Shown here: positions 21,098 through 28,073 of the stretch, piece after piece
How the letters are laid out: each line of letters opens with the position of its first letter
How positions within the stretch are numbered: the stretch's first letter is position 1
DNA from: a virus
IMG/VR virus record: IMGVR_UViG_3300029893_000507
Span: 1-47,396 of that record
Length of the DNA: 47,396 nucleotides
Strand: one strand, 5' to 3'
Made by a program: the position numbers and the translations under genes
Notes under the pieces: model-generated
The model's database searches: none
Told to the model about the DNA's origin: nothing
What the model saw: only the letters and a program-made list of their open reading frames with translations

Positions 21098-21297
21098 CCC
21101 TCACCCCCGTTCAGCTTCTCGCCCAGCTGCCGGACGAGCTCGCGCTCGGGCCAGGTCAGCCGGTCGTCGTCGTAGGCCACCACCAGCAGGCCATCGCGGT
21201 GGGCCCGAGCCTGCATCGCCCGGGCCCTGGCGCGCAGCTGGTCGTCGGTGAAGCTCGACGGCGCCCGATGCGCGAGGCTGGTGCGGACGTGGCTCAT
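21094..21297 (-). CDS. Small hypothetical protein
   Basis: 67-aa protein, charged and helical, with the segment TDDQLRARARAMQARAHRDG and a T-W-P-E-R-E-L-V-R-Q motif. ATGA overlaps join it to genes on both sides, which supports it as a real, coupled gene. Function unknown. Confidence 0.65.
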   Translation of the reverse strand: MSHVRTSLAHRAPSSFTDDQLRARARAMQARAHRDGLLVVAYDDDRLTWPERELVRQLGEKLNGGEG

Positions 21298-21956
21298 CGC
21301 CCCATCGCCTCGGCGAAGTCCGGATCGGCGGCCATCTCGTCGAGCAAGCGCTGCCGCTCGCGCTGAAAGGCGGCTTCCTGCTCGGCCTCGGACAGTTCTG
21401 GCGCCGGCGGCCGCGGGATGCTCCCCATCACGACCTCACGCGCCGCGCTGGCCTGCGGGCTCGGCACCCGGCGCGCCTGCGGCTTGGGCTCGTCCATCTT
21501 GAACCGCTTCAGCACCTCGAGCCGCCGCAGCGGTGCCGAACGCGCCTGCAGCTCGTCGGCGACGGCGTTGCGGAGGTCGGCCGGCAACGGCAGTTTCGCC
21601 CCCCAGCGCCAGTCGCGCACAATGGCGTCGACAGCCTCCGAAAGCAGGTCCGCCGGCAGGTCAGCAAGGCCTTGGCGGTAGAACCGCGTCGCCGTGACCA
21701 CATCGGGATTTCCGATGCCGAAGGTCCTAACGAACTGGAACAGCCGGTCGATTATCACGCCGAACGCCTTGGCGTCCGCCGGCACCAGCGAAGCCTGGTA
21801 GGCCGACATGAGGCCGTCGACGACCTCCGGCGTCGCCTCGTCGGGGCGGCCATCAACCAGACGCCAGTTCGTCAGCCAGTGCGGACAGGATGGCGTCCCG
21901 GTCGGCCTGGAGCTGGAGGTCGGGATCGAGCTTGGTGTGGCGGTGAGGTCGCCCAT
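21294..21956 (-). CDS. Putative replication loader (P-like) protein
   Basis: 220-aa protein directly behind the O-like initiator. The middle (about residues 50-130) shows a pattern seen in phage replisome helper proteins of alphaproteobacteria: L-P-A-D-L-L-S-E-A-V-D-A-I-V-R-D-W-R-W-G, then L-P-L-P-A-D-L-R-N-A-V-A-D-E-L. The last 40 residues are acidic and helical. AGGAGG precedes the ATG at 21956, although this start makes a 104-base overlap with the upstream gene; ATG at 21809 is the alternative. By analogy with lambda P it may bring the host helicase to the origin; low certainty. Confidence 0.65.
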   Translation of the reverse strand: MGDLTATPSSIPTSSSRPTGTPSCPHWLTNWRLVDGRPDEATPEVVDGLMSAYQASLVPADAKAFGVIIDRLFQFVRTFGIGNPDVVTATRFYRQGLADLPADLLSEAVDAIVRDWRWGAKLPLPADLRNAVADELQARSAPLRRLEVLKRFKMDEPKPQARRVPSPQASAAREVVMGSIPRPPAPELSEAEQEAAFQRERQRLLDEMAADPDFAEAMGR

Positions 21957-22770
21957 TGGGGCCTCCTGGCGGCATGGTGGTGTTGAGGATTCGCGTCTCG
22001 GCAACGGCGCGGCTGAAAAACCGCAGCCCGTTCGGCAGCCAGGCACTGTCCTGGCGCGCCTGCCGGGCCTTGGCGATGACGGCGGTGATGGTGGGGTAGA
22101 TGTCCCGCTCCGGGTCGGCGCCATCGGCCAGCCACTGCTGAACGACGCCGGTGGTTCCGTACCAGGTCGGGTCCTTGCTCGAGGTGCCGAGAATGCTCAG
22201 CACTCGCTCGGCGACGTCGGGCCACGCAGCGGCGATCTGGGCGGCACCATGATCGGTCGCGGCAGGGACGGCACCACGCACAGGGACGGCACCCTTGCGC
22301 GTGCCCGCGTCCTCATCCTCTACGGTTCCCTTTCGGTTATATGACGGTTTGGGTGTCGCAGGCGACAGGGGATCCCCTGTCGCAGACGACAGGGGTGGGG
22401 TGTCGCGGGCGACAGGGGTGTCGATTCCGACAGGTGTCGCAGGCGACAGGGGTTGATGGTCTTCGTCCCCTGTCGCAGACGACAGGGGTTCGGCCTCTTG
22501 ACCCCGGTCGCGGGCGACAGGGGTGAGGTCATAGATCACGACCCCGCGGCGACCGGTTCCAGCCTTTCGGATTTCACCAGCCTCGACCAGCTTGTCGATG
22601 GCGTTGCGGACGTTGCGCTCCGTGATTCGAGCCATGCGCGCCAGCGTCGGCACGCTCGGCCAGGCCAGCATTTCCTTGCTGGCAAGTTCAGCCATGGCGA
22701 GCAGCACGACCAGCGGCGAGCCTGACTGCGTCGAGTGGGCCCACACGGCGTCTCTGGCCTCTTTGCTCAT
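21853..22770 (-). CDS. Replication initiator (O-like, winged helix)
   Basis: 305-aa protein. Residues 1-85 are a winged-helix/GntR-like domain with W-P-S-V-P-T-L-A-R-M-A-R-I-T-E-R-N-V and the K-L-V-E-A-G-E-I wing, typical of phage replication initiators. The middle (about 85-145) is a repeat region encoded by DNA iterons. The C-terminal part (about 180-300) is a second helical domain that may bind the loader. The ATG at 22770 overlaps the previous stop in an ATGA junction; an earlier in-frame start is less likely. It probably binds the iterons inside its own gene, as lambda O does. Confidence 0.82.
   Translation of the reverse strand: MSKEARDAVWAHSTQSGSPLVVLLAMAELASKEMLAWPSVPTLARMARITERNVRNAIDKLVEAGEIRKAGTGRRGVVIYDLTPVARDRGQEAEPLSSATGDEDHQPLSPATPVGIDTPVARDTPPLSSATGDPLSPATPKPSYNRKGTVEDEDAGTRKGAVPVRGAVPAATDHGAAQIAAAWPDVAERVLSILGTSSKDPTWYGTTGVVQQWLADGADPERDIYPTITAVIAKARQARQDSAWLPNGLRFFSRAVAETRILNTTMPPGGPNGRPHRHTKLDPDLQLQADRDAILSALADELASG
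22354..22523. repeat. Palindromic iterons, putative replication origin
   Basis: Seven palindromic elements lie inside the initiator gene: 22354-22367, 22374-22395, 22401-22414, 22419-22432 (diverged), 22435-22448, 22467-22488 and 22507-22519 (first arm altered). The core is TGTCGC-N2-GCGACA, usually followed by GGGG. Two have perfect 9-bp arms (CCCCTGTCG with CGACAGGGG). Between the first two, bases 22362-22383 form a perfect 22-base palindrome with central GGGGATCCCC. The same DNA core is read as P-L-S-P-A-T in some copies and P-V-A-R-D-T in others, so the DNA, not the protein, is conserved. This matches an iteron origin such as lambda ori. Confidence 0.8.
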
Positions 22771-25544: not shown

Positions 25545-26513
25545 TCAGTTCACGTAGGCCGGTTCGGCTTCGGCGGCGGCGCCGCGGCGGCCGCGCTTCG
25601 GACGGCGGTCGAGCTGCTCGGGGATGTCGAGCGGGTCGGCGTCGGCCTTCGCCGCGTTCGCCCGGGCGATCTGGCCGCCTTCCCAGCCGCGGTCCCAGGC
25701 GGCGTGCACATCGGTGCCGGCGTCGTGCGGATTGGCCTCGCGCGCCTCGTCGGCCTCGCCCGCCTTGTTGCCGGCGCAGGTCGCCTCGTAGACGGCGTCG
25801 TCGTGTGCAGCCTGCTCGGTCTCGCGATCGGCGGCACCCTTGGCGCGGCCGCGCTCCCACAGCATCGCCTTCGGGGTGCCGTCGGCGTGCGGGTTGGTCT
25901 CGGGGCCGAAGCCGTCGCGGCCGGCCTCCAGGCCCTTATTGAACACGGCGCCGCCGTGTTCGACCTCGCCGTCGTCGGCGGCGGCCAGGCCCTGGCCCCA
26001 GTCGGAGTCGGCCGGCCCGATTTCCTCCGCGCCGTCGCCCTCGCCGCGGGCGGCGCCGGTGCCCTCGCCGTCGGCGTCGTCGAGCGGCTGCGGCGCGGCG
26101 CCGTCGTCACCGTCGGTGGCCGCCTCGACCGGCGGCTCGTCCTCGTCCTGCTCGACCAGGTCGGCCTTGAGCTGATCGAGCGCGTCGAGGAAGTTCAGCA
26201 CCTCGCCCTGCTTCAGCGCGGTGAAGGCCCGGCGCAGATTGCTCTGGATCCGCTCGCCGTCGGCCTCGTCCTCGAGGTCCTGGGCGGTACGGTGGCGCTT
26301 GTAGAGCTTGTAGAACAGCTCGAGGTCGGCGCGTTCGATGCCGCTGTCCTTCTTCAGCCCGCGCCACAGCGCGGTGCGCTCGTCGGTCTTCGGCACGATG
26401 TGGGTGGCCTTCAGATCCGCGATCTCGCAGTCGAGCGCGTAGAGCTGCGCGAAAGCCGTCTTGATCGCGTTGGGAAGCTGGTCGGCGGAAAGCCGCGGGG
26501 CGTCGTTGCTCAT
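25545..26513 (-). CDS. Helical protein with two Rmf/CrpP-like repeats
   Basis: 322-aa acidic protein in three parts. Residues 1-118 are helical, and by pattern only resemble GapR/DUF2312-type coiled coils. Residues 119-185 are an acidic, probably disordered linker. Residues 186-233 and 238-285 each follow the Rmf/CrpP pattern: a G-x-x-A-G-x-x-G segment, then N-P-H, a W and a second G-x-x-x-G. E. coli Rmf binds the ribosome and makes it dormant; Rmf-like domains are common in alphaproteobacterial phages, but their role is not known. A possible hibernation-like effect on host ribosomes is inference. Confidence 0.75.
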   Translation of the reverse strand: MSNDAPRLSADQLPNAIKTAFAQLYALDCEIADLKATHIVPKTDERTALWRGLKKDSGIERADLELFYKLYKRHRTAQDLEDEADGERIQSNLRRAFTALKQGEVLNFLDALDQLKADLVEQDEDEPPVEAATDGDDGAAPQPLDDADGEGTGAARGEGDGAEEIGPADSDWGQGLAAADDGEVEHGGAVFNKGLEAGRDGFGPETNPHADGTPKAMLWERGRAKGAADRETEQAAHDDAVYEATCAGNKAGEADEAREANPHDAGTDVHAAWDRGWEGGQIARANAAKADADPLDIPEQLDRRPKRGRRGAAAEAEPAYVN

Positions 26514-26534: not shown

Positions 26535-28073
26535 TCAGCCGCCGGCGACGACGCGCTGCAGAGCAGCGGGCGACAGCCGGTCGGGAGCGGTGGGGGAACG
26601 GGGTTCGGTGGCCGCGCGCGGCTTCAGGGTCACGCGGTAGTGCGTGCGCGAATGGCAGTCGGGACAGTAGCTCGACCCCGGCTGCGTCGGCTTGCCGCAG
26701 AACTCCCGCGTCGGCCGGACGTCGTCGCCCCAGAGCGGGAACTGGCAGGTGCGCCAGTCCGGGAACACCTTCGGCGCCGGCGCGTGTTGGACAGGCCGCG
26801 GGCCGGCTGGGCCCGCCTTTTCGCCGGATGCACTGGTCGGGAGGTTGCTCCCGGTTCGGGTTGTCCCCGTGCCCGCGGCCTGGGGCGGCGTCGCAGGTGC
26901 GGTGCCGGCCGAGACCTCGGGGCGAGCACTTTGCATTTTCTGCAAAGAAGGCCCGGGAGCGGGCGTCACCCCGCTCCCGGCAGTTGTCAGGGAGGCACGG
27001 TTCAAGATGCGATTGCCGGCGTCCTCAGCGGCGGGTGCCGCATCTTCCCGGCCGGCGGCGGGAAGCTCATTGGTCTGGGCGAGGCGCCAGTTCGGAGTCG
27101 TGTTCCCCGGCTCGGCCGTCTGGCTGCCGTCGGCGATTGTGACGCGCCGGCTGCGCTGGAAGCGCTCGACCTTGATCAGGCTCGCCGCCTCCAGGCGCTT
27201 CAACGAGTTGCTGGCCGTCGCCGGCGACTTGTCGCCGAGGCGCTGGCCGATCTCCTCGTTGCTCGGGCAGACGACGCCGGCCGTCGCGGCCTCAGTGACC
27301 ACGGCCAGCACCCGGAGGTCGGTCGCGGACAGGCGCGCCCTCGGCGCCGGCGCCGGCGGCTGTGCGCCTGGCAGCGTGATCGCGCGGTGCGGCCCGCCAG
27401 AGACGGTGATTAGGCCCAGCTTCTTCAGGTGGAACAGCGCCTTGGCGACCGGGCCGTGCGTCGTCTGGCAGCGCGAGCCGATTTCCTTGTTGGTCAGGCG
27501 GCAGACGCCGTCGACGGCGGCGGCGCGGATGACGTCGAGAACGCGATGGACGTAGGGCGGAAGGATGTGCTGCGGGGCTTCCACCCGCTCCCCAGGCGTC
27601 TCCTGGTTTGCCCGATCGCCATTGGCCACCTGGTCGGGTCCGCGGCTGCCCGCTGCCGCCGGCGGGCATTCGGCCCCGGTTTCGGCTCCAGCCACGCATT
27701 CCGACCGCGGCGTTTCAATGCGGTCGACGCTCTTGGCCTTCATCGCCTCCCCGGGCTCAGGGATCTCGTACCGCTCACACAGCACCGCCGCGGCGCGCTC
27801 ATCGTCGCCGATATGGGTGCCGATTTCCGGAGGGGCCGAAGAGCACTCCCCTTGGACAGCCTCCCCGGCCCCTGCAGCCTCTCCGGATCTCGGCGCGGCG
27901 ACGGCTTCACCGCACTCCCCGGCTGCTGCATCTCGTTCATCGTTCGCCGCGGCCAGCTTCCGCAGCTCGGCCTGCACCTTGATCGCATCGACCTGGATCG
28001 CGCAGGCGATCGCGATCGGGTCGTGGCCGTGCTTCTTGGCGGCGCGCGCCACGCGGGCGGCGAGGTTGCTCAT
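26535..28073 (-). CDS. Two winged helices plus GcrA-type zinc motif
   Basis: 512-aa protein. Residues 1-40 are a helix-turn-helix-like segment, 41-165 a disordered region. Two winged-helix domains follow (about 168-232 with T-N-K-E-I-G-S-R-C-Q-T and about 245-312 with S-N-E-E-I-G-Q-R-L-G-D-K-S). The C-terminus has C443-x-F-P-L-W-G-D, C459-G, Y-C470-x-x-C473-H474, the layout of the C-terminal part of GcrA, the alphaproteobacterial sigma-70 cofactor that acts at methylated promoters. The protein may therefore touch RNA polymerase or the host cell cycle. The zinc motif is read directly; the function is inference. It follows a CII-like regulator. Confidence 0.78.
   Translation of the reverse strand: MSNLAARVARAAKKHGHDPIAIACAIQVDAIKVQAELRKLAAANDERDAAAGECGEAVAAPRSGEAAGAGEAVQGECSSAPPEIGTHIGDDERAAAVLCERYEIPEPGEAMKAKSVDRIETPRSECVAGAETGAECPPAAAGSRGPDQVANGDRANQETPGERVEAPQHILPPYVHRVLDVIRAAAVDGVCRLTNKEIGSRCQTTHGPVAKALFHLKKLGLITVSGGPHRAITLPGAQPPAPAPRARLSATDLRVLAVVTEAATAGVVCPSNEEIGQRLGDKSPATASNSLKRLEAASLIKVERFQRSRRVTIADGSQTAEPGNTTPNWRLAQTNELPAAGREDAAPAAEDAGNRILNRASLTTAGSGVTPAPGPSLQKMQSARPEVSAGTAPATPPQAAGTGTTRTGSNLPTSASGEKAGPAGPRPVQHAPAPKVFPDWRTCQFPLWGDDVRPTREFCGKPTQPGSSYCPDCHSRTHYRVTLKPRAATEPRSPTAPDRLSPAALQRVVAGG

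Follow-up and report, generated by a model that had tools for sequence, protein, structure and literature searches.

The window, the whole 47,396-base stretch of an IMG/VR virus record, carries on its minus strand a gene, P0001, that by profile and predicted fold is an O-like replication initiator gene, and an array of palindromes lies within its coding sequence (Table 1). The profile match of P0001 to PHROG 391 ('replication initiation O-like') covers residues 1–153 (E = 9.4e-13), eight more replication PHROGs match the protein, the matched families annotated as O-like include PHROGs 8540, 345 and 678 as well as 391, and a Pfam search returned HTH_36 (E = 5.5e-6). AlphaFold2 models a winged helix at residues 1–82 with pLDDT mostly above 90, composed of helices at residues 3–12, 18–29, 40–47 and 51–64 and strands at 67–72 and 78–82, and a profile of this domain finds LexA and an N-terminal domain of the DnaD type among PDB entries. 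The fourth helix, directly preceded by T50, is the predicted recognition helix. The linker that follows (residues ~87–173), which contains the palindromes, is modelled at low confidence and as disordered, and the helices beyond it are likewise of low confidence, the last one excepted. The open frame that overlaps the end of the initiator gene has a single, weak PHROG match (34007, function unknown, E = 6.6e-4) and no match in a Pfam search; its position is that expected of a P-like helicase-loader gene, for which we consider it a positional candidate. Elsewhere on the minus strand, the window encodes at 26535–28073 a protein of 512 residues that gives winged-helix matches and ends in a GcrA-like segment, and at 25545–26513 a protein whose C-terminal part matches the Pfam ribosome modulation factor (RMF) domain in two stretches (E = 2e-8).

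Table 1. Features of the initiator locus, in window coordinates.
Feature	Positions	Strand	Basis or remark
O-like replication initiator gene P0001, 305 aa	21853-22770	minus	open frame with ATG start, PHROG 391 match
Winged-helix DNA-binding domain, residues 1-82	22525-22770	minus	AlphaFold2 model and profile matches
Predicted recognition helix, residues 51-64 (ERNVRNAIDKLVEA), with R52, N53, N56	22579-22620	minus	AlphaFold2 model and mutual information
Iteron 7, one mismatch (GGTCGCGGGCGACA)	22506-22519		reads PVARDR, codon phase 2
Iteron 6, 9-bp arms CCCCTGTCG/CGACAGGGG	22471-22484		reads PLSSATG, codon phase 1
Iteron 5, TGTCGCAGGCGACA	22435-22448		reads PLSPAT, codon phase 1
Iteron 4, TGTCGATTCCGACA	22419-22432		reads PVGIDT, codon phase 2
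Iteron 3, TGTCGCGGGCGACA	22401-22414		reads PVARDT, codon phase 2
Iteron 2, 9-bp arms CCCCTGTCG/CGACAGGGG	22378-22391		reads PLSSATG, codon phase 1
Perfect 22-bp palindrome	22362-22383		right half of iteron 1 abutting left half of iteron 2
Iteron 1, TGTCGCAGGCGACA	22354-22367		nearest AT-rich tract; reads PLSPATP, codon phase 1
AT-rich tract, candidate DNA-unwinding region	22310-22353	minus	directly after array in coding direction
AACCRTC-type repeat 1, AACCGTC	22343-22349	minus	codon phase 1
AACCRTC-type repeat 2, AACCGAA	22332-22338	minus	11 nt on, codon phase 0
AACCRTC-type repeat 3, AACCGTA	22321-22327	minus	11 nt on, codon phase 2
Open frame overlapping end of initiator gene	21294-21866	minus	downstream of P0001

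Seven palindromes of the form TGTCG-N4-CGACA, six exact and one with a mismatch, lie inside the linker between 22354 and 22519, in agreement with the seven elements that the initial annotation had counted in the O-like gene. The longer core that it had proposed, TGTCGC-N2-GCGACA, is exact in just three of them and is here replaced by TGTCG-N4-CGACA, the core common to the array; its further description of some copies as perfect over 22 bases fails, as the longest (22374–22395 and 22467–22488, around iterons 2 and 6) have 9-bp arms flanking a non-palindromic 4-base centre and are complementary at 18 of 22 positions. One palindrome that is perfect over 22 bp does exist where it had been placed, although it arises where iterons 1 and 2 abut and is not a further element. 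Over the whole window, 14 matches to TGTCG-N4-CGACA occur at no more than one mismatch against 2.7 expected, a count reached in 0 of 100 dinucleotide shuffles, and outside the array there are just single weak matches.

These repeats are shared between copies as DNA and not as one peptide. Four are translated as PLS[SP]AT (PLSSAT or PLSPAT) in one codon phase and three as PV[AG][RI]D[TR] (PVARDT, PVGIDT or PVARDR) in another, so the two-phase reading reported previously stands. Across 20,000 synonymous recodings of the linker with phage codon usage, the number of exact copies never exceeded 2 (mean 0.06) against the 6 observed; with codons drawn according to usage in the gene itself, no recoding had more than 3. 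Because the copies occupy mixed codon phases and synonymous recoding does not reproduce them, the array is under selection at the level of DNA, a conclusion that the initial annotation had drawn from the codon phases and that the computation supports. The location of the array in a disordered linker leaves the DNA free to be selected for binding, since the encoded peptide need only stay flexible.

Base composition changes where the array ends. The first 30 nt of the tract that follows are 50% AT against 33% for the gene, and the gene's AT-richest 40-mer falls within this tract. The same holds in relatives: among 75 iteron-bearing genes, the 60 nt after the last palindrome exceed their gene in AT content by 11–12 points (Wilcoxon p = 1e-12 for one half of the 60 nt and 2e-9 for the other), and composition is at background at 60–90 nt. 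AACCAT is the commonest hexamer in the post-array tract of these 75 genes, enriched 19-fold, and AACCGT is enriched 64-fold; copies of the resulting AACCRTC repeat are mostly 11–13 nt apart in relatives and stand in differing codon phases in most genes with at least two copies. A strictly defined pair of repeats was found in 42 of 148 O-like genes versus 1 of 391 control frames. The three copies in the window are imperfect and fall outside this strict definition; they are spaced by exactly 11 nt and occupy all three codon phases. As the element stays constant while the iterons vary, whatever reads it is probably common to these phages.

We searched for relatives both by DNA pattern and by protein. 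A scan of 2.9 million viral contigs that used DNA alone and required two nearby palindromes returned 42 contigs, in about 28 of which the array lies within a winged-helix gene of the O-like kind, most often with copies in mixed codon phase; among the others, several arrays are in probable initiator genes (L044, L055, L060/L081, L061, L057/L069 and L079). Five of these cases (L044, L055, L060/L081, L061 and L079), together with L090, carry TGTCG-N4-CGACA arrays in initiator-like winged-helix genes that lack an O-like profile match, which suggests convergent or older use of the TGTCG half-site. One 116-kb viral contig (L074) has three near-identical CTGTCGCTACCGACAG palindromes at 385–484 with no O-like gene over them. 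In contigs of bacterial genomes, the matches listed for the two-palindrome pattern were mostly same-phase protein repeats or sites outside phages, and only L113, a Microbacterium prophage, and L126 among them were O-like; the bare pattern is therefore weak in bacterial genomes, where codon-phase mixing is needed as a criterion. Paired TGTCG palindromes also stand just upstream of one common gene in Furfurilactobacillus and Ligilactobacillus (L089, L124 and L140). By its sequence we take this gene to encode a phenolic acid decarboxylase, and the palindromes are perhaps the operator of a regulator.

To assemble the protein-based set, we searched 716 genomes of three classes with PHROG 391, at a threshold tightened to 1e-6 because a looser one also matched control genomes, and queried viral contigs and phages with proteins. 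It comprises 121 distinct homologs chosen regardless of palindromes, save for L113 and L126, which the DNA pattern had brought in. Judged against a codon-shuffle null, 72 of the 121 have a significant palindrome array after the winged helix and 49 have none. Their half-site cores are diverse (TGTCG, TGACG, TGGCG, TGTCC, GGAAC, CCGCA, CGGAA, GATGC, CGGTG and others), and the geometry is shared: the dyads are mostly even-centred, the usual distance between centres is 18/19 or 23/24 bp, and the first palindrome falls at about residue 115. Confinement of the repeats in relatives to the protein-conserved phase, the outcome named beforehand as contrary to an origin reading, is not what we found: of the 88 arrays with at least three sites, 74 are spread over two or three phases, and among homologs gathered without the palindrome criterion, 57 of 61 arrays beat all 20 of their synonymous recodings. 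One alphaproteobacterial O-like gene (L437:868-1977, minus strand) carries five palindromes of the CCCGT type, AACCCGTCAGAAATGACGGGG and variants close to it, with all three codon phases represented. A protein search of viral contigs with P0001 alone returned no relatives, alignment A3 proved too variable as a query for contig scans, and a search through the neighbouring helicase gene and Alphaproteobacteria genomes yielded just distant genes with different arrays of their own. Conservation is accordingly judged on distant relatives, as these searches found no close relative of the phage.

We compared each half-site with the helix predicted to read it, in a protein-selected set of 62 iteron-bearing genes. 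With base -5 denoting X in TG[X]CG, this base is T in 20 of 20 genes whose recognition helix is of the RN type without Asp, His or Ala two residues before the Arg, A (seven genes) or G (three) in RN helices that have one of these residues there, A in 14 of 17 R[S/T] helices, and C in 5 of 5 RR helices. These classes were chosen after the data had been seen; the Mantel and information tests are independent of them. Distance between helices correlates with distance between half-sites once the rest of the domain is removed (partial Mantel r = 0.40, reached by none of 5,000 permutations). With the helix accounted for, the remainder of the winged-helix domain has no predictive value (r = 0.02). The columns with the most mutual information on base -5 are N56, T50 and N53 in P0001 numbering. 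Some branches stand outside the simple helix rule, among them Arthrobacter Decurrovirus genes, with sites of the CCCCGGGG type; in two of these phages, Link and Arielagos (L084:1862-1902 and L086:1562-1605), TACCCCCGGGGGGGTA-type palindromes occur beside a GGTGTCG..CGACACC-like one, and the recognition helix of their O-like genes is RAVKACIK.

Sister genes on a tree built without the helix columns switch helix and half-site together, both for L067 (RN, TGTCG) and L321 (RS, TGACG) and for L288 (RN, TGTCG) and L292 (RT, TGACG). An independent-pairs test on well-supported branches is underpowered, with only four pairs, essentially all of which agree (p = 0.125). A joint change is also seen between L058-type and L368-type genes, which align without gaps over 420 nt, with 77–80% protein identity to L058: the recognition helix differs (NRRNTINAINQL to DRRNVIMAVNRL), all four palindromes are changed in both arms (TGTCG..CGACA versus TGATG or TGACG..CGTCA), and the AACCRTC tract is nearly identical. 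Such a change is consistent with sites recognised by the product of the same gene, and not with an unrelated binding protein or a role in RNA. Covariation between half-site and recognition helix thus gives strong in silico support to a binding specificity set by the phage's own protein, and supports the earlier proposal that the gene product binds these sites. A site sequence that changes with the DNA-reading helix suggests, in turn, a readable protein–DNA code.

Other explanations for the array have to be weighed against these data. The palindromes could be an operator for transcriptional control of the operon, whether by the initiator or by another regulator, with no part in an origin; winged-helix domains are common in repressors and palindromic sites suit a dimeric one, but this account is unlikely given that the sites lie some 250–415 bp inside the gene, that no sigma-70-like promoter was found near them, and that the arrays sit in a linker, ahead of an AT-rich tract bearing a second repeat. 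If the regulator is taken to be an unrelated protein, covariation with the initiator's own helix opposes it as well. Autoregulation may also operate alongside an origin role. It is very unlikely that the array acts in the mRNA, as hairpins that pause translation, affect the stability of the message or signal packaging. Its coding-strand RNA does fold much better than shuffled sequences (z = -8.8), as that of any palindrome array must, but hairpins call only for pairing inside each copy, yet in any one phage every copy has the same half-site sequence, this sequence tracks the recognition helix, and neither an Rfam match nor a terminator was found at the array.

Degenerate peptide repeats, which PLSPAT and PVARDT resemble, could make the DNA repetition a by-product of a flexible linker or a protein-binding motif, and same-phase protein repeats in bacterial genomes can indeed yield such DNA matches. 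The spread of 74 of 88 arrays over two or three codon phases, and the loss of the pattern on synonymous recoding, seen for the window as well as for 57 of the 61 homologs, refute a repetitive peptide as the main cause and leave this account highly improbable overall. Insertion of a palindromic mobile mini-element, spread within the gene and tolerated in its disordered linker, would explain copies in different phases of a tolerant region, but we give it hardly any credence, as elsewhere in the window only single weak matches occur, the spacing between centres is mostly confined to 18/19 and 23/24 bp, and the sequence follows the helix of the protein.

We therefore favor, with a probability of roughly 85%, the reading of the array as a lambda-type phage replication origin within its own initiator gene, consisting of iterons bound by the gene's product and an adjoining unwinding tract. 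Computation supports its components, namely the O-like identity of the protein, selection on the DNA, the matching of half-sites to helices, and the adjacent AT-rich tract with its second repeat; from these we infer origin function. A lambda-like origin had been proposed at the outset, and the protein family, the array and the AT-rich tract support it, although the GC skew of the window shows no break at the array. In the mechanism that we envision, each TGTCG-N4-CGACA palindrome would be bound by a dimer of the O-like protein, whose two winged helices would each take one half-site and read it through recognition-helix residues around R52, N53 and N56. A nucleoprotein complex of several such dimers would then form on the array, beside the 60-nt AT-rich tract. 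This tract, which contains AACCRTC repeats about one helical turn apart, is where the strands would probably open and the helicase load, leading to the start of replication.

More broadly, we hypothesize that a large, mostly uncharacterised group of Actinobacteria and Proteobacteria phages shares a two-part origin in the O-like gene, with a half-site predictable from a few helix residues, a near-constant AACCRTC repeat in the unwinding tract that is read by a conserved factor (another domain of the initiator or a host protein), and a specificity changed by altering the helix and all iterons together, a generalization for and against which we see even odds. From the constancy of the AACCRTC repeats, these phages may share an element for unwinding or loading. 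For most sequenced phages the origin is not known; a palindrome scan combined with the recognition helix offers a means to locate a candidate origin and predict its binding site. The array is also a clean example of dual selection on a single DNA segment, for the protein it encodes and for binding sites that fall in several reading phases. It raises a testable question as well, namely how an initiator comes to alter its specificity if a number of sites have to change along with it.

The literature searched, a collection with few subscription journals, yielded the lambda and Stx precedents but no description of this O-like family's iterons, of the helix rule or of the AACCRTC repeats; we accordingly regard the correspondence between helix and half-site and the AACCRTC element as new here, though an earlier description may exist. 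Other initiators of the O-like families PHROG 391, 8540 and 1032, such as Arthrobacter Decurrovirus gene 23 and Vibrio phage Va_PF430-3_p42, have the same winged helix and a linker with palindromic repeats, and differ from P0001 in their half-sites (CCCCGGGG-type and GGTC/GACC-type) and recognition helices; genes of these families are mostly annotated merely as helix-turn-helix or hypothetical proteins. RepA of iteron plasmids of the pSK41 type and the chromosomal primosome protein DnaD also have an initiator or primosome winged helix and appear as remote fold matches (4pql, 4pt7 and 2v79, the first two of which we take to be plasmid RepA), with a similarity to P0001 that is generic to winged helices (E about 0.02–0.04). 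Plasmid iterons are usually direct repeats. Those of lambda have dyad symmetry and serve O dimers, so strong palindromy is no departure from lambda and the contrast drawn in the initial annotation on this point was overstated. The locus does differ from the lambda and Stx-phage origins in iteron sequence and in having seven sites versus four or six, the likeness between the proteins being seen at the level of O-like PHROG families, and its AT-rich tract has AACCRTC repeats at 11–13 nt that we have not found described. In lambda and Stx phages the origin likewise lies in the middle of the O gene, where iterons adjoin an AT-rich tract and are bound by an O dimer, and additional iterons add residues to O (PMC7466680). 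The locus described here shares with these origins an initiator with a DNA-binding domain, several iterons in mid-gene and an AT-rich tract beside the array (PMC7466680).
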